Shown here: positions 14,466-30,113 of the stretch, one piece after another
Layout: every line of letters starts with the position of its first letter
How positions within the stretch are numbered: position 1 is the first letter of the stretch
Origin: Oscillospiraceae bacterium
GTDB lineage: Bacteria; Bacillota; Clostridia; Oscillospirales; Oscillospiraceae
NCBI GenBank assembly: GCA_902787755.1
Contig: CADAHL010000007.1
Coordinates: 1-64,000, forward strand
Direction of reading: 5' to 3'
DNA length: 64,000 bases
Notes under the pieces: generated by a model
Seen by the model: only the letters and a program-made list of their open reading frames with translations
The model's database searches: none
Told to the model about the DNA's origin: nothing
Position numbers and translations under genes: made by a program

Positions 14466-14490
14466 GGGCGACCACAAGGGTCGCCCCTAC
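14466..14490 (-). repeat. REP-like palindrome upstream of the RAYT gene
   Basis: GGGCGACC-ACAAG-GGTCGCCCCTAC: an 8-bp perfect stem with the GTAGGGGC head on the minus strand. It lies 16 bp before the transposase start, the usual place for a REP next to its RAYT. Confidence 0.88.
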
Positions 14491-14506: not shown

Positions 14507-15037
14507 ATGAACGACTCTCCAGCTGATCTGCCCGACCGCAAATCTCTTCGGCTTCCCAAATATGACTATCGCTTACCCGGCGCTTATTTCGTCACTATCT
14601 GCACGCAGGATCGAAGGTGTATTCTCTCGGATATACGTAGGGGCGACCCTTGCGGTCGCCCGGAATTGCGTCTGACTTCCTATGGCGCTATTGCCGAGAG
14701 TACCCTCTCCAGACTGGAAACAGAATACGGGGTATCCATTGATGCAAGCGTTGTGATGCCCAATCACGTTCACTTTATCTGCCGTATCGCAGAGGATCGG
14801 GCGACCACAAGGGTCGCCCCTACACTGGGACGGATCGTCGGCGCGTACAAGTCCATCGTGGCGAACGATTGCAGAAAAGCCGGGTTGACGGGAAAGCTCT
14901 GGCAGCGGGGTTATTATGAGCATGTCATACGCGGGGATGCGGATTATCGCGACATCTATCTTTACATAGAGGGTAATCCCTCTAAATGGGCGGAGGATCG
15001 CTACTATCAGAGTTTACCGGAGGAGACAGACCCATGA
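14507..15037 (+). CDS. REP-associated tyrosine transposase (RAYT, Y1/HUH family)
   Basis: 176-aa single-domain Y1 transposase of the type that nicks and mobilises REP palindromes. The HUH motif is MPNHVHFI (His pair at about residues 86 and 88). The catalytic Tyr region is the C-terminal helix block ending YIEGNPSKWAEDRYY, after WQRGYYEHVIRGDADY. Two REP-like palindromes lie inside the reading frame, at 14637-14661 and 14799-14823. They are translated as RRGDPCGRP and RATTRVAPT and keep the frame open. They add about 9 residues each at loop positions, so activity may persist. The stop overlaps the yigZ-like start (ATGA). Another REP lies just upstream. Confidence 0.92.
   Translation: MNDSPADLPDRKSLRLPKYDYRLPGAYFVTICTQDRRCILSDIRRGDPCGRPELRLTSYGAIAESTLSRLETEYGVSIDASVVMPNHVHFICRIAEDRATTRVAPTLGRIVGAYKSIVANDCRKAGLTGKLWQRGYYEHVIRGDADYRDIYLYIEGNPSKWAEDRYYQSLPEETDP
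14637..14661 (+). repeat. REP-like palindrome inside the RAYT gene, copy 1
   Basis: GTAGGGGCGACC-CTTGC-GGTCGCCC, 8-bp perfect stem, same sequence class as the copy at 44163. In frame with the transposase. Confidence 0.9.
14799..14823 (-). repeat. REP-like palindrome inside the RAYT gene, copy 2
   Basis: Identical over 25 bp to the copy at 14466-14490 and in the opposite orientation to copy 1. In frame with the transposase. Confidence 0.9.
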
Positions 15038-25523: not shown

Positions 25524-26008
25524 GGCCCCACCCCCATCAGGCACAGGATCAGGCCGTAGACGACGCTGGCGCTCAGGCCGCAGACGATCACGGGCCCGGC
25601 GATGACGAACATCTTGGCCGAGGTGCCGGTGATGATCCCCTCGGTCTTGAATTCCAGGGCCGGGGCGGCCACGGAATTGGCAAAGCCGGTAATGGGCACC
25701 AGGGTCCCGGCGCCGCCCAGCCTGGCCAGGTCGTCATAGACGCCGAAGCCGGTAAGGGCCGCCCCCAGAAACACCAGGGTGATGGAGGTGGCCGTACCGG
25801 CGGCCTCGGTGTCCAGGCCCCAGAGGGAGAACAGGTCGCCGATCAGCTGGCCCAGGCAGCAGATGGCCCCGCCCATGAGAAAGGCCTTCAGGGCGTTGGG
25901 TCCGGCCTTGGACCGGGGCATGTGTCGTTCGGCATAGGCCCGGTACTCCTCGTTGGTCATGCCCAGGCCGCCTTCCTTCGCGTGTTGTTTGCTTGAATCT
26001 TTCTGCAT
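25520..26008 (-). CDS. spoVAC: Stage V sporulation protein AC
   Basis: Integral protein of the forespore inner membrane. It belongs to the SpoVA channel that moves Ca2+-dipicolinate into the developing spore and out during germination, and is a candidate mechanosensitive element. 162 aa with about four transmembrane helices. The conserved C-terminal half has ITGFANSVAAPALEFKTEG and AKMFVIAGPVIVCG. GGGAGGGG lies 5 nt before the ATG. Unusually, spoVAD and spoVAE are not adjacent; only a 43-codon frame follows. They would need to be elsewhere in the genome. I could not identify a convincing sigma-G promoter. Confidence 0.93.
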   Translation of the reverse strand: MQKDSSKQHAKEGGLGMTNEEYRAYAERHMPRSKAGPNALKAFLMGGAICCLGQLIGDLFSLWGLDTEAAGTATSITLVFLGAALTGFGVYDDLARLGGAGTLVPITGFANSVAAPALEFKTEGIITGTSAKMFVIAGPVIVCGLSASVVYGLILCLMGVGP

Positions 26009-26099
26009 TGGATCCCCTCCCGTGTTTTCCGTAGTTTTTCCTCTCTCTGCGGATTCTATGCTATCTCCGCAGAATTCTGAAAAAAGAGAAAAAACTCCT

Positions 26100-26128
26100 T
26101 GACTTTCCCGGAATGAGGGCTTATAATA
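26100..26128 (+). promoter_or_regulatory. Promoter of tRNA-Ser
   Basis: -35 TTGACT, 17-bp spacer, perfect -10 TATAAT, about 40 bp before the tRNA. A strong stable-RNA-type promoter. Confidence 0.85.
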
Positions 26129-26168
26129 TCCAAGCTGTCAAGTGAATAGCTTGTTTCTTGAGCAACAC

Positions 26169-26253
26169 GGAGATGTCGCGTAGTTGGTCGAGCGCGCACG
26201 ATTGGAAATCGTGTAGGGGTCAAAAGCTCCTCGAGAGTTCGAATCTCTCCATC
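26169..26253 (+). tRNA. tRNA-Ser(GGA) with its acceptor 3' strand interrupted
   Basis: The 5' acceptor strand GGAGATG, D-arm, anticodon arm CACGA-TTGGAAA-TCGTG (anticodon GGA), a serine-type long variable arm AGGGG/CTCCT and the T-arm GAGAG-TTCGAAT-CTCTC are all present. After the first four bases of the 3' acceptor strand (CATC) the sequence changes. The missing TCC-G-CCA end lies 174 bp further on (26428-26434), after a second copy of CGAATCTCTCCATC. Precise loss of 174 bp between the 14-bp direct repeats would restore a perfect tRNA with encoded CCA. As it stands, only four of seven acceptor pairs form. Confidence 0.8.
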
Positions 26254-26427
26254 AAGATCCCCCACCACCCGGTGGGGGATCTTTTTCATAAGTGGTTGGA
26301 GAGATTCGAATGTGTATCGCACAGGCCGGTGGCCTGTGCGTGAGCCAGTGCAAACACTGGCGAACACCGCTATTTTGATTCCGCATCCCCCGCAGGCGGA
26401 ATCAAAATGCAAGCGAATCTCTCCATC
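26254..26427 (+). mobile_element. 174-bp hairpin-rich segment inside tRNA-Ser
   Basis: Bounded by 14-bp direct repeats (26240-26253 and 26414-26427), with an inverted copy of the same T-arm sequence at 26296-26309. Four hairpins follow one another. First is a 13-bp terminator with TTTTT (26254-26286). Then come a 10-bp stem with 3-nt loop (26318-26340), a 7-bp stem (26344-26361) and a 13-bp stem (26372-26408). There is no coding potential. The element type is unknown to me; it could be an attachment-site scar, a small structured mobile element or a rearranged tRNA duplicate. Confidence 0.55.
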
Positions 26428-26437
26428 TCCGCCATAT

Positions 26438-26479
26438 TTGCACGCTAATTTTGATAGAATTAGCGTGCAATATTTTTTT
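26438..26479 (+). terminator. Original terminator of tRNA-Ser
   Basis: A 13-bp perfect stem (26438-26450 with 26458-26470) followed by TATTTTTTT, right after the displaced CCA end. Confidence 0.88.
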
Positions 26480-26551
26480 ACCTTAAAACCCCTAACCCGC
26501 GTCTTTCTTGTGCGCGCGCCGCAGCGGAATGCAGTTGACGCTGTGGCTGCT

Positions 26552-26604
26552 GTTGTGTTTGTAGTTGTAGATGCAGTTGTAGTTGTAGTTGTAGATGTAG
26601 TTGG
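26552..26604 (+). repeat. Hexanucleotide repeat (GTTGTA)n
   Basis: About eight imperfect copies of GTTGTA (variants GATGCA, GATGTA) lie some 70 bp upstream of the promoter of the orphan gene. A slippage-prone array in a non-coding stretch. The remainder of 26480-26670 shows no gene. Confidence 0.8.
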
Positions 26605-26670
26605 ATGGAATCGTTAACGACGCTGATCGATCGATAAGGAGTTTTTTCGACAGGCGCTTTTTCTTCTCGA

Positions 26671-26700
26671 TTGCAGAGCCCTGCCCCGGTATGTTATAAT
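26671..26700 (+). promoter_or_regulatory. Putative promoter of the 734-aa orphan gene
   Basis: -35 TTGCAG, 18-bp spacer, perfect -10 TATAAT, leaving a leader of about 80 nt. Confidence 0.6.
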
Positions 26701-26786
26701 ATGATCCGTTATACTGAACTTCCGTACTGTAATCCGTGTTCTTTGCTTTTCTGTATTCGGCCATTTTTGTGTTTGGAGATTTGACT

Positions 26787-28991
26787 ATGCTCTCAGTCAC
26801 AGCACGCGCAAAAAGCGTAACGCAGCCACGAGGTGGGTATCTTCCCCTCTCGCAGTTTACTGAACAAGTATATGATGATGATCTCGCAGTTATTGAGATC
26901 GAGCCGGCATTTGCTTCTATGCAGGGAACCGCGGTAGATTATCTCAGCAGGTTTTTATGTGGGTTCCCAACTGAAAAAGCTTTTGGGATACCTCTCGAGG
27001 GTGCTGAAAGGGTAGGCGAAACCGCAGTTGCCGCAAAGCTCCTGAGCAAAATAAATCGACTTAATAAGGAATCCATCCTCGCGGCTTGTAAGCTTACAAA
27101 ATATGATGTGGCTTTCCGGCAAGGTACGGCTTATTTCAAGTCGTTCCCACGCATAAAAATTCCCGACACCATCGTAAACAATATCAAGACATTGGTTGGC
27201 CGGACCCTCGCTTTTCTTCATCAGCATGACCCTATTATTGATGTTGGGTTTTCTTTTGGTGGTGGCTTCACCTCGATCGTAAGCTCCGGAGACGGAGATT
27301 ATCTCACTTCCGATGGGATGTGGGATCTAAAGGTATCAAAAACCCCTCCAAAGCCGCATGAACTCCTGCAGATTCTCATGTATTACATCATGGGATGCCG
27401 TTCCACGCCCTCAGTCTTCAAAAACATCCGCACAATAGGGATCTTCAATCCCCTCCTGAATCGTTCCTACAGCATAAATGTTGCTGACATTCCTGACAAA
27501 GTCTTTCAACAGGTAAGCCGAACTGTGATCGGATATTCAGTTCCGGACGATCCTGCTCTATGGCGAGATGTGCATGGTGAAGATCCAGCGGTTATCTCGG
27601 ATTTTTTTGAGATGTATTCCTTGCAATTTGAGAATAGTCCGTTTGACCCCGACAGCTATTCTGATGGCATCTACACAATACGGGTCATGGATTATTGGAG
27701 GTATTACAGAAGCGTTGCGACTGATATATGGGTATTTCAGCCCAAATTTTCTCATACAGATCATGTACTTCTCCTAAAAAATTCCGGTTTTATCATGTTT
27801 GTCTCCGTATCTTCGAAGGGAAGCACCTGTATTTTGCAGGGCGCGCACATGAGACGGTTGGAAAGGCCTGTTGAATACTATTATGAGCGATTACCCGCCT
27901 ATGGAACCATGGTGCTCAATATGTTCTCAAAATATTGGGATGCCCTCTACAGTCTTAGTGAATTTGTTCGGGCAATTTCCCCAAAGAAGGTGAGCGCAAA
28001 GGTCCATGGATGTATAGTCGATATTGATTTTTTTAACCATATATACCTCAACCCTCTCGACGGATCGGTCGTACCATATTCCGCAGAGTCCATGTATTCA
28101 AAACATGCATATAAGAATCTATCCTCTCTGATCGCCGCTGAGATTCCGACATTACAGCCAGCATGGAATAAAGCGCTGTTGCGCAAACCGAACACCTTTG
28201 CATTGCCGGATTCCCTGAACCCGGAATCCTCGCTTGCGTTGACCGGCAGCGAAATCGAATTGCGTCCCCAGTTCGTCAGCGATCCCAGTATGTATAACAT
28301 CTCCAACAGGCTAAAAGCGCTCCAATTGGTTTATGATTATCGCCTTGTTGCGGTATGGTACGATTCCATTTTACCGGCTTTTGAACGACTTGAGATACCA
28401 CCCCGTCAACCGGACGGCGATGATACAATATGGTGCGATGCCCTTTTATCTGCTTCCGAGCAACATGAGATACCACCGCATCGGCCGGAAGACGATAATT
28501 CGAAGGCAGCTTCCGTGGCCGATCAGCGAATTCAGGGCGGCTTTAAGTATTTTGTTAAAGTTCTGTATGATGATCACAATTCTTCTCCGAATATGCGTCG
28601 AGCGGTTCAATGGATCAGCAAAAGGCAGATGAAACAGGACGATTTCTTTGCCATTATTCGAAAGCTGTTTCAGGATAACGAAAGCGAACTGCTACGATTC
28701 GAGCATGTTTTTTTCTGTGCAACCTGGCAGCCCAAAAGCAGAGTTCCACAGCATATTGTAGTCACATCAAGTCCAAGAGATGTTCTCCTGTATTATAAGG
28801 ATTTATTTGTGAAACGGTCAGCATATCATGAAGGCATTTCATTCCGTTTCGAAATAAAAGCAAGCGGCAATCAAGAGCGAGCCTTTATAACAGTGGATTT
28901 CCACGGTGGGAAGCAAAACCCATTGTCCACGTCCGGATCTTTCCGGTATCAAAACAATTCGTTGGTCAGGGCAGCAACAGATTCGCAATAA
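26787..28991 (+). CDS. Orphan 734-aa protein with RecB/PD-(D/E)XK-like nuclease motifs
   Basis: No family that I can name with confidence. Residues ~150-235 look like a RecB-type PD-(D/E)XK core: acidic GDGDYL (D169, D171), then DGMWDLKVSK (D176, D180-x-K182), then QILMY (Q195-xxx-Y199), the QxxxY motif of RecB/Cas4 nucleases. The rest (about 500 residues) is unrecognised. It contains a diverged 25-residue tandem duplication (28354-28503) with the EIPP motif in each copy. No signal peptide or TM helix is evident. The ATG at 26787 follows TTTGGAGA. Codon use is clearly more A/T-ending than in all neighbours and the gene sits next to a disrupted tRNA, both signs of transfer. A DNA-processing or defence role is inference only. 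Confidence 0.72.
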   Translation: MLSVTARAKSVTQPRGGYLPLSQFTEQVYDDDLAVIEIEPAFASMQGTAVDYLSRFLCGFPTEKAFGIPLEGAERVGETAVAAKLLSKINRLNKESILAACKLTKYDVAFRQGTAYFKSFPRIKIPDTIVNNIKTLVGRTLAFLHQHDPIIDVGFSFGGGFTSIVSSGDGDYLTSDGMWDLKVSKTPPKPHELLQILMYYIMGCRSTPSVFKNIRTIGIFNPLLNRSYSINVADIPDKVFQQVSRTVIGYSVPDDPALWRDVHGEDPAVISDFFEMYSLQFENSPFDPDSYSDGIYTIRVMDYWRYYRSVATDIWVFQPKFSHTDHVLLLKNSGFIMFVSVSSKGSTCILQGAHMRRLERPVEYYYERLPAYGTMVLNMFSKYWDALYSLSEFVRAISPKKVSAKVHGCIVDIDFFNHIYLNPLDGSVVPYSAESMYSKHAYKNLSSLIAAEIPTLQPAWNKALLRKPNTFALPDSLNPESSLALTGSEIELRPQFVSDPSMYNISNRLKALQLVYDYRLVAVWYDSILPAFERLEIPPRQPDGDDTIWCDALLSASEQHEIPPHRPEDDNSKAASVADQRIQGGFKYFVKVLYDDHNSSPNMRRAVQWISKRQMKQDDFFAIIRKLFQDNESELLRFEHVFFCATWQPKSRVPQHIVVTSSPRDVLLYYKDLFVKRSAYHEGISFRFEIKASGNQERAFITVDFHGGKQNPLSTSGSFRYQNNSLVRAATDSQ
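28354..28503 (+). repeat. 75-bp tandem duplication inside the orphan gene
   Basis: Units 28354-28428 and 28429-28503 align without gaps, sharing TATGGT.CGAT and GAGATACCACC. They encode two 25-residue units of pattern (I/V)W.D..L.A.E...EIPP..P. The copies have diverged but remain in frame. Confidence 0.8.
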
Positions 28992-29006: not shown

Positions 29007-30113
29007 ATGAAAAAAACCAACGGTCTGTTCTGGATCGCGCTGGCGGTCCTTCTCTTCATTTTCATCAGCAGCACGCGGAAGTCTGACGAGCCGGCGGCGC
29101 CGACTCCCGGGCTCAGCCTGAGTACCCCCGCGCCCAGCTTTGCTCAGCCCGCGCCCGCACCGGCAGCGCCCGCGCCTTCCGTCCCGACGGCGGACCCCTA
29201 CGCCTACACTGCGAGGGACTGGCAGCAGGCCATGCCCTCCCCCTCAGATGCGCAGATCGATCAGGCCAGGGGGACGGCACGCTCGCCCTATATCTCCATC
29301 TATCCCCATTATCCCGGCGTCAATCGGGTCCTGGAATACAGTGTGGATCTGCACGCGGATCATCAGCCTCTGGGGACCTATCTGTGCCCGCTCAACTGGT
29401 GGATGGACGTGTCGGCCCTGCAGGCCAGATATGTGTCCGTTTACAACGACTATACCGGCATTCCGGGCGGGTACTGCGGCTTCCAGACCCTGGGCGACGG
29501 CTCCCGGGTCTTCATCATGACCGTCTGGAGCACCTTCTGTCAGGACGCCGCCGGAAACGTGACGGTATTTACCCCTCAGGTGATCTACCCCGAGGGCCAG
29601 GGCAGCGGAAATACGGACATGGCCGAGGGCAGCTTCACCCACGTTATTCTCCCTTATGACTGGCGTCCGGGGCGGGATTACCGGGTGCTGCTCCAGACAA
29701 GCCGGTCGGAACAGACCGGCAACACCGTCCTGACTGCCTTCGTCTGTGATCTGCAGACCTACGAGTGGACCATGCTGGCCTCCTTCGACACCGGAGTGGC
29801 CGAGGTCTATCCCAACAGCGCGGGCGGCTTCCTGGAGAACTTCCTGCCCGACTACGCCGGAGAGGTCCGCAGCATGCAGCTGCGCAATCTGCGGGCCCGG
29901 TCGGCGGATACCGGTCAGTGGGTCAGCGCCGACTCCGTCCAGTTCCTGCTCAACAGCTCCGTCTCTCAGCTGGACTACTCCGGCAGCGCCGCCTACGGCG
30001 CCGACGGCGACGCCATCTGGGCCATCACCTCCGGGGTGAACGGCCTGTGCCCGACGCCCTCCGACAATATAACCTATCCCCTGTCCCCCGGAGACAGCTC
30101 CGATCCGTACTGA
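29007..30113 (+). CDS. Exported DUF3472-like protein
   Basis: 368 aa. An N-terminal hydrophobic helix (residues ~7-22) is either a signal peptide or membrane anchor. It is followed by a Pro/Ala-rich linker to about residue 70 and a beta-rich domain of ~280 residues. The domain has the pattern GGYCGFQTLGDGSRVFIMTV and FTHVILPYDWRPGRDYRVLL seen in DUF3472 proteins, a guess from memory. Those are often found with carbohydrate-binding or envelope proteins; the biochemical role is unknown. It is 15 bp after the orphan gene but its GC-rich codons show it belongs to the host chromosome. A strong terminator follows. Confidence 0.72.
   Translation: MKKTNGLFWIALAVLLFIFISSTRKSDEPAAPTPGLSLSTPAPSFAQPAPAPAAPAPSVPTADPYAYTARDWQQAMPSPSDAQIDQARGTARSPYISIYPHYPGVNRVLEYSVDLHADHQPLGTYLCPLNWWMDVSALQARYVSVYNDYTGIPGGYCGFQTLGDGSRVFIMTVWSTFCQDAAGNVTVFTPQVIYPEGQGSGNTDMAEGSFTHVILPYDWRPGRDYRVLLQTSRSEQTGNTVLTAFVCDLQTYEWTMLASFDTGVAEVYPNSAGGFLENFLPDYAGEVRSMQLRNLRARSADTGQWVSADSVQFLLNSSVSQLDYSGSAAYGADGDAIWAITSGVNGLCPTPSDNITYPLSPGDSSDPY

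Follow-up and report, generated by a model that had tools for sequence, protein, structure and literature searches.

Organization of the tRNA-Ser(GGA) locus

The stretch of DNA analyzed here (64,000 nucleotides; hereafter the window) carries a tRNA-Ser(GGA) gene that is cloverleaf-like and lacks its last seven nucleotides, TCCGCCA. The truncated gene scored 40.7 bits with the Rfam tRNA model, aligned to model positions 4–67 of 71 only, and was left uncalled when ARAGORN was run on the window. Part of the gene, the 14-bp sequence CGAATCTCTCCATC, recurs as a direct repeat at a spacing of 174 (26240–26253 and 26414–26427), and TCCGCCA follows the distal copy immediately (26428–26434). The features of the locus are listed in Table 1. 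This is the arrangement that the initial annotation had described, and its coordinates agree with ours: the four hairpins that it reported are all present, the first of them terminator-like and followed by a T run, and the inverted T-arm copy that it noticed inside the segment is present as well and counts as a meaningful part of the site. Judged by the sequence, the segment is also, as proposed, a discrete one flanked by direct repeats, and a deletion between the repeats would regenerate the tRNA. The picture of a one-off segment splitting a tRNA did not survive; as described below, the segment is one member of a family whose elements as a rule bring along a complete tRNA 3′ end.

Table 1. 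Features of the tRNA-Ser(GGA) locus and the transposase gene upstream of it (window positions)
Feature	Position	Strand	Basis or remark
RAYT-like Y1 transposase	14507–15037	+	Pfam Y1_Tnp, 27.8 bits
tRNA-Ser(GGA) without its last 7 nt	26169–26253	+	Cloverleaf-like; contains proximal CGAATCTCTCCATC
174-bp unit (proposed "empty cassette"), T-loop CGAAT through TGCAAG	26240–26413	+	Repeat spacing of 174
Terminator-like hairpin of the unit, with T run	26254–26288	+	Inverted repeat (hairpin 26254–26283); alike hairpin in locus L076
Inverted copy of the T-arm 3′ half	26297–26310	+	Repeat analysis
Folded site, model R1	26298–26424	+	136.9 bits (one of the 34 sites from which R1 was built); covariation; DNA fold
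Inner hairpin 1	26318–26340	+	Repeat analysis, DNA fold
Inner hairpin 2, GCCAGTG CAAA CACTGGC	26344–26361	+	DNA fold; alike hairpin in other genera
Inner hairpin 3	26372–26408	+	Repeat analysis, DNA fold
Complete tRNA-Ser 3′ end CGAATCTCTCCATCTCCGCCA, 3′ of the site	26414–26434	+	Sequence, direct repeat
Second terminator-like hairpin, GATAGAA loop	26438–26470	+	Inverted repeat; same type directly 3′ of three tRNAs without an adjacent site

The outer stem of the folded site is formed by the inverted T-arm copy (26298–26308) and the direct T-arm copy (26414–26424), which enclose the three inner hairpins. Folded as DNA, the strand shown (26296–26426) reached −47.8 kcal/mol (z = −11.0), and the opposite strand of the same interval gave z = −9.5; in either case none of 200 shuffled sequences equaled it. 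The view that the segment matches no known intron form is borne out by Rfam, where over window positions 25900–26900 only the tRNA reached its gathering score and the group I intron model was unmatched. A second tRNA-Ser(GGA) was absent from the 37 tRNA matches of the genome, and none of the 35 typed tRNAs was a tRNA-Ser, in an assembly that is 92% complete. Downstream of the segment we observed a run of TTGTAG-like short repeats (26559–26605), followed by an ORF of 751 aa on the + strand (26736–28991) with zero Pfam matches at E 0.1 and, as the next gene, a DUF3472 protein (29007–30113).

A family of folded sites behind tRNA and tmRNA genes

The initial annotation had proposed looking for the 174-bp segment beside other tRNAs, and searching the source genome at the DNA level did turn up two further copies, each following an intact tRNA gene, tRNA-Arg(ACG) in one case and tRNA-Ala(CGC) in the other. 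The inverted and direct T-arm copies of the Arg, Ala and Ser elements suit, in each case, the element's own tRNA. A T-arm filter (at most two mismatches) kept 47 sites, from which 7 were dropped, as were 6 longer ones, and the remaining 34 sites (alignment A1) were used to build the covariance model R1. With this model, five sites were found in the source genome, behind tRNA-Ser(GGA), -Arg(ACG), -Ala(CGC), -Pro(TGG) and -Pro(CGG). Counting the source genome and using samples that were limited or drawn subsets, R1 matched 56 of 101 genomes of the genus (with a maximum of 18 matches in one genome), 17 of 300 genomes and 11 of 106 genera of the family, and 6 of 394 genomes of the order. One of these six (G210) belongs to another family; its eight R1 matches were weak, no tRNA was called at the two loci inspected, and we set them aside as probably due to chance. 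Seven loci came from three other genera (g26, g30, g38). A tRNA was called in four of them, and in three it is the host (tRNA-Gln, -Leu and -Arg), with the site 3′ of the tRNA and T-arm copies that match; the fourth called tRNA is an unlikely host, and the other three loci had no tRNA call.

A wider pattern scan returned 35 stretches, mostly metagenome-assembled genomes as far as the records are named, of which 32 are titled Clostridia, Eubacteriales, Clostridiales, Oscillospiraceae or Ruminococcaceae and several come from rumen or gut samples. The matches in Nevskia and Omnitrophota are probably due to chance, and the third outlying stretch, which carries no named group, had zero R1 matches. 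Viral contigs gave four 17-mer matches, none of which was an R1 site, and similar DNA was absent from the plasmids and phages searched.

We also noticed a second, GC-rich structural class built on the same plan of inverted and direct T-arm copies, behind tRNA-Val(CAC) and tRNA-Glu(TTC) on contig C19 of the source genome (L018, with zero R1 matches) and behind tRNA-Ser(GGA) in another genome (L057, G031); the tRNA-Thr(GGT) of the source genome (L005) may have a member of this class as well.

Most sites match the T-arm of their own host

A larger alignment (A2; 121 sites in 93 sources, found by structure, from loci mostly of site-rich genomes) was used to relate sites to their hosts. A CCA-ending tRNA lies upstream on the same strand at 93 of the 121 sites and is missing at 26, among them sites at contig ends, sites hosted by tmRNA and the site behind the truncated tRNA of the window; two sites were removed as duplicates. 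The site starts 39–62 nt after the CCA in 62 of the 93 tRNA-hosted cases. As called, the hosts comprise 19 tRNA species, including one doubtful call, a Thr(TGT) at L269 that is probably a missed tRNA-Tyr. In two of three further loci scanned the host is a tmRNA, located 50 and 54 nt upstream of the site. The majority of host tRNAs are intact, unlike the window copy; the host is kept whole because the elements normally bring a complete tRNA 3′ end.

At six variable T-arm positions, compared for the 78 sites that lie at most 400 nt from their tRNA, the inverted and direct copies agreed with their own host at 5.09 and 5.51 positions, respectively, and with other T-arms at 3.23 and 3.26. The host match of the inverted copy was reached by none of 10,000 permutations. 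Over 11 T-arm positions, at least 9 agreed with the host in 65 of the 78 inverted and 67 of the 78 direct copies, the remainder being looser, and 19 odd rows were exceptions to the own-host match. In all, the family spans 23 different T-arm sequences.

The stems covary and are nearly free of G-T pairs

The 34-site alignment contains four helices with 40 pairs, and 98.4% of its cells are standard pairs; helix 1 was partly selected here by the T-arm filter and helices 2–4 were unselected. Changes on both sides were found in 26 of the 40 pairs, and the covariation score was 0.451 compared to 0.145 in shuffled alignments, none of 500 being as high. One of the five covariation measures, the number of further pair types, did not rise above its shuffled value (47 vs. 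44.1; 78 of 500 as high).

In alignment A2, which was built with the structure model and is thus biased toward pairs and unbiased on G-T, the inner helices 2–4 held G-T pairs in 27 of 3,404 cells. The control, with 95 G-T pairs in 1,343 cells, was the acceptor, T and anticodon stems of the CCA-ending genes within a set of 95 distinct tRNAs that covered all loci fetched, including one viral contig. Helix 1 had 35 G-T pairs in 1,196 cells (2.9%) and was 91.6% Watson-Crick. A structure maintained as RNA is normally expected to contain more G-U pairs. Since the stems covary and G-T pairs are almost absent, the sequences suggest that the site is a folded DNA instead of an RNA.

Units, arrays and cargo

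A unit consists of a tRNA 3′ end (T-loop CGAAT to CCA), a terminator and a folded site of about 127 nt, with one or a few genes in some cases lying between the last two. With unit length taken as the distance between successive T-arm copies, 73 of 102 units were 150–260 nt long and without a gene, 12 were 261–350 nt, one was shorter and 16 were longer. Gene carriage is thus the minority state, as most units have no gene. Three of the 16 long units are larger mobile elements of 8.5–16.4 kb (L233, L235 and L238), which entered the tRNA and left a [3′ end, terminator, site] block on their far side. The other 13 measure 385–3,432 nt (the length of one, L269, being doubtful); 11 of these contain an ORF of 90 aa or longer, and in 10 of the 11 the longest ORF lies on the tRNA strand. 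Eight of the 11 are clear and three (L252, L164 and L269) doubtful: the ORFs of L252 and L164 may not be cargo, because the end of another element precedes the second site of L252 and because the far site of L164 scores 41 bits.

Behind several tRNAs, two or three sites occur in tandem. In one genome (G086) an XhoI-type endonuclease and an N6/N4 methyltransferase together form one cassette behind tRNA-Ser(GGA) (L242, 699–2302), and in the source genome an ABC transporter is carried behind tRNA-Pro(CGG) in the unit of 3,432 nt. Further cargo, in these and other arrays, comprises a GNAT protein, an alpha/beta hydrolase, HTH regulators, an amidohydrolase as well as small proteins with no assigned family; no integrase was present among the cargo proteins scanned. 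The second site of L252 (G113:C29; also L097) sits directly in the remnant of a tRNA-Arg T-loop, with GGGGTTCGAAT followed by CATGTCC, and has neither its own tRNA 3′ end nor a terminator.

Occupied and empty loci and the missing acceptor end

The gene upstream of the tRNA-Ser(GGA), in the window as in other genomes, is one that we take to be spoVAC. This same locus is occupied by a cassette in some genomes and empty in two (G018 and G022). Of 80 tRNAs that have no site next to them, three are followed directly by a terminator-like hairpin with the GATAGAA loop, namely a tRNA-Lys of the source genome and a tRNA-Ser in each of two others. This hairpin comes after the site in 7 of 120 site copies, those of the window and of six relatives, and was found between a tRNA and an adjacent site in none of 83 cases; the remaining matches to its regular expression differ from this form. 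The placement of these ten hairpins fits an incoming cassette that would have displaced the old tRNA end together with its terminator. A comparison of flanks between arrays was discarded, the flanks being too repeat-rich to count as movement.

The nearest cassette start that we found, at L076 in G035, reads CATC-TCCGCCACGAAA-AAGATCCCC, compared to CATC-AAGATCCCC in the window, and the 12 nt that are absent from the window contain the acceptor end. The tRNA of the window is therefore "split" because a 12-nt gap relative to this one related cassette removes the acceptor end. TCCGCCA was retained in 33 of 39 tRNA-Ser(GGA) entries (some loci being entered twice); of the six others, four are the window locus and two are one locus with an N gap. 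The 12-nt gap alone could be an assembly artefact, which is unlikely for the element itself because it recurs in many genomes.

Candidate recombinases and alternative explanations

Among the matches listed, tyrosine recombinases were present in all 24 genomes tested, site-bearing or not, and by eye no integrase type tracked the sites. In G118, which has nine sites at 91% completeness, the matches listed comprise four tyrosine recombinases, of which two resemble Xer in score and length. The integron integrase model (IntI, TIGR02249) exceeded its cut-off in none of 15 site-carrying genomes; the best match (82.8 bits vs. 265) coincides with a high-scoring gene labelled Xer-like. Serine recombinases were found in 22 of 25 genomes, with no pattern relative to the sites by eye. 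A phage-type tyrosine integrase lies beside a partial tRNA (model positions 7–64) at G000:C52:2379–3212.

One alternative holds that the segments are satellite-like mini integrative elements that mimic the double-stranded att site of tRNA-targeting ICE or prophage tyrosine integrases and are moved in trans. Tyrosine recombinases occur in every one of the 24 genomes tested, the 8.5–16.4 kb elements occupy the same tRNAs in three loci, and in L238 the attR copy starts in the T-loop, with a tyrosine integrase (L226) next to the tRNA. In all three loci, however, the cassette is a resident outside the larger element and distinct from its attR, and among the matches listed no integrase type follows the sites by eye. 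Double-stranded att sites do not require strongly covarying hairpins, which also counts against this reading, and we consider it rather unlikely. The narrower notion that the site is itself the attR of a larger element was rejected for L233, L235 and L238, because the larger element there separates the tRNA from the resident [3′ end, terminator, site]. Mobilization of REP-like elements by a RAYT, an HUH Y1 transposase such as the one in the window, draws its appeal from HUH enzymes acting on single-strand hairpins and from co-occurrence: 39 of 47 genomes with a RAYT carry sites, compared to 17 of 54 without (Fisher p = 2.8e-7, assuming that both scans drew the same 101 genomes and ignoring descent), and at least two genomes have a RAYT gene less than 300 nt from a site (19 nt in G032:C20; 234 nt in G021:C22, where the gene has an internal stop). 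Against it, both RAYT flanks that we inspected (window and L180) adjoin a different, short hairpin with GTAG/CTAC, presumably the usual REP form beside RAYT genes; in the window this hairpin ends in CTAC and lies just upstream of the RAYT gene (14466–14490). Moreover, RAYT was undetected in 17 genomes with sites, including G086 with eight and G108 with seven, and this explanation appears improbable to us.

A structured RNA, e.g., a tRNA trailer or a regulator copied along with tRNA genes, would fit the stable fold and the same-strand tRNA upstream of 93 of 121 sites. Yet a terminator-like hairpin separates the tRNA from the site, making a shared transcript less likely, G-T pairs are nearly absent, the two strands fold about equally in the window, and the direct copies of tRNA ends and the gene cargo would be left unexplained; an RNA origin is therefore very improbable. 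That the locus is just a broken tRNA-Ser duplicate or an assembly artefact, as a truncated tRNA known from a single assembly might suggest, we find scarcely credible, given the same anatomy behind other tRNAs of the source genome and the R1 matches in more than half of the genus sample. For the element as such, a group I intron, a broken duplicate and an artefact were all rejected, the intron model being unmatched and copies being present elsewhere.

Proposed mechanism and significance

We think it probable that these elements form an integron-like system of T-arm cassettes, of which the window copy would be an empty one. From the sequences we infer that the units recombine, presumably with a folded substrate, and may be excised. 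In this model, a candidate site-specific recombinase would recognize the site as folded DNA, either single-stranded or as a cruciform, and the cassette would enter the tRNA gene by a crossover at CGAAT in the T-loop. The 3′ end of the incoming cassette would restore the tRNA and shift the old 3′ end and the old terminator downstream, and repeated entry would give rise to arrays. Through pairing of its T-arm copies, a cassette would stay with tRNAs that share one T-arm. In the window, the tRNA-Ser(GGA) cassette lacks the 12 nt and thereby deprives the tRNA of its acceptor end, which exact excision would restore.

More tentatively, and with the balance of our own judgment slightly against it, the elements may represent a separate gene-capture class in which the T-arms of tRNA and tmRNA genes serve as dispersed insertion platforms, base pairing of the folded-site arms, instead of a protein preference, sets the target tRNA, and the mover is an enzyme not known for this role (a housekeeping Xer or an unnoticed one). 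If the T-arm cassette model is true, anaerobic gut bacteria would possess a tRNA-anchored gene-cassette system, with no IntI in the 15 genomes tested. In the approximately 120 aligned sites the covarying structure is found together with the target match, and control of target choice by folded DNA is therefore directly testable. The cassettes would also account for the repetition, in these genomes, of tRNA 3′ ends and terminators downstream of tRNA genes, the T-arm sites would constitute natural site-specific landing points, and the cargo includes a complete-looking XhoI-type restriction-modification pair. Among the open-access papers found by our searches, no title or abstract opening pointed to a description of tRNA T-arm cassettes.

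Comparison with known systems

Bacterial group I introns of tRNA genes likewise interrupt a tRNA gene; the T-arm unit differs in its length of about 180 bp, its position in the T-loop and the supply of its own tRNA 3′ end. With RAYT/REP and IS200/IS605 non-autonomous elements the T-arm sites share a small, hairpin-rich form, repetition in the genome and strict Watson-Crick stems, whereas direct repeats of tRNA ends and gene cargo set them apart, and a GTAG-type foot is absent from the site consensus (34-site alignment). ICEs, IMEs, prophages and islands are similar in their direct repeat of the tRNA 3′ end and in supplying a replacement 3′ end, and the T-loop is a known crossover position of tRNA-targeting integrative elements. 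Restoration of the tRNA is seen in the T-arm family at large, the window copy being the exception. Unlike those elements, the T-arm unit has no integrase gene and is typically about 180 bp long (174 bp in the window), and one family serves 23 T-arm sequences through matched inverted and direct copies.

Integrons are a further system close to the T-arm cassettes in organization. The attC boxes contain conserved AAC and GTT, with RYYYAAC at the 5′ end, according to the parts of PMC2727003 and PMC8632094 that describe them. By eye, the 34-site alignment has no AAC/GTT boxes at the site ends, which are ATTCGAAT and TGCAAGCGAAT; because these boxes are absent and IntI exceeded the cut-off in none of the 15 genomes, the system is not an integron by definition. 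As in attC sites, the site folds into imperfect hairpins whose structure is conserved above the sequence, and recognition would apparently proceed via structure, the sequence being variable. As in cassette arrays, units carry one or a few ORFs with the site 3′ of the ORF (11 of 13 long units, three of them doubtful, most units being gene-free). Both systems combine a gene with a folded recombination site 3′ of it, tandem units in one orientation, and varied small cargo. They differ in that the T-arm site is a multi-hairpin junction and most T-arm units are gene-free, and in that integrons use one attI, whereas T-arm cassettes would target T-loops in a wide range of tRNA and tmRNA genes.
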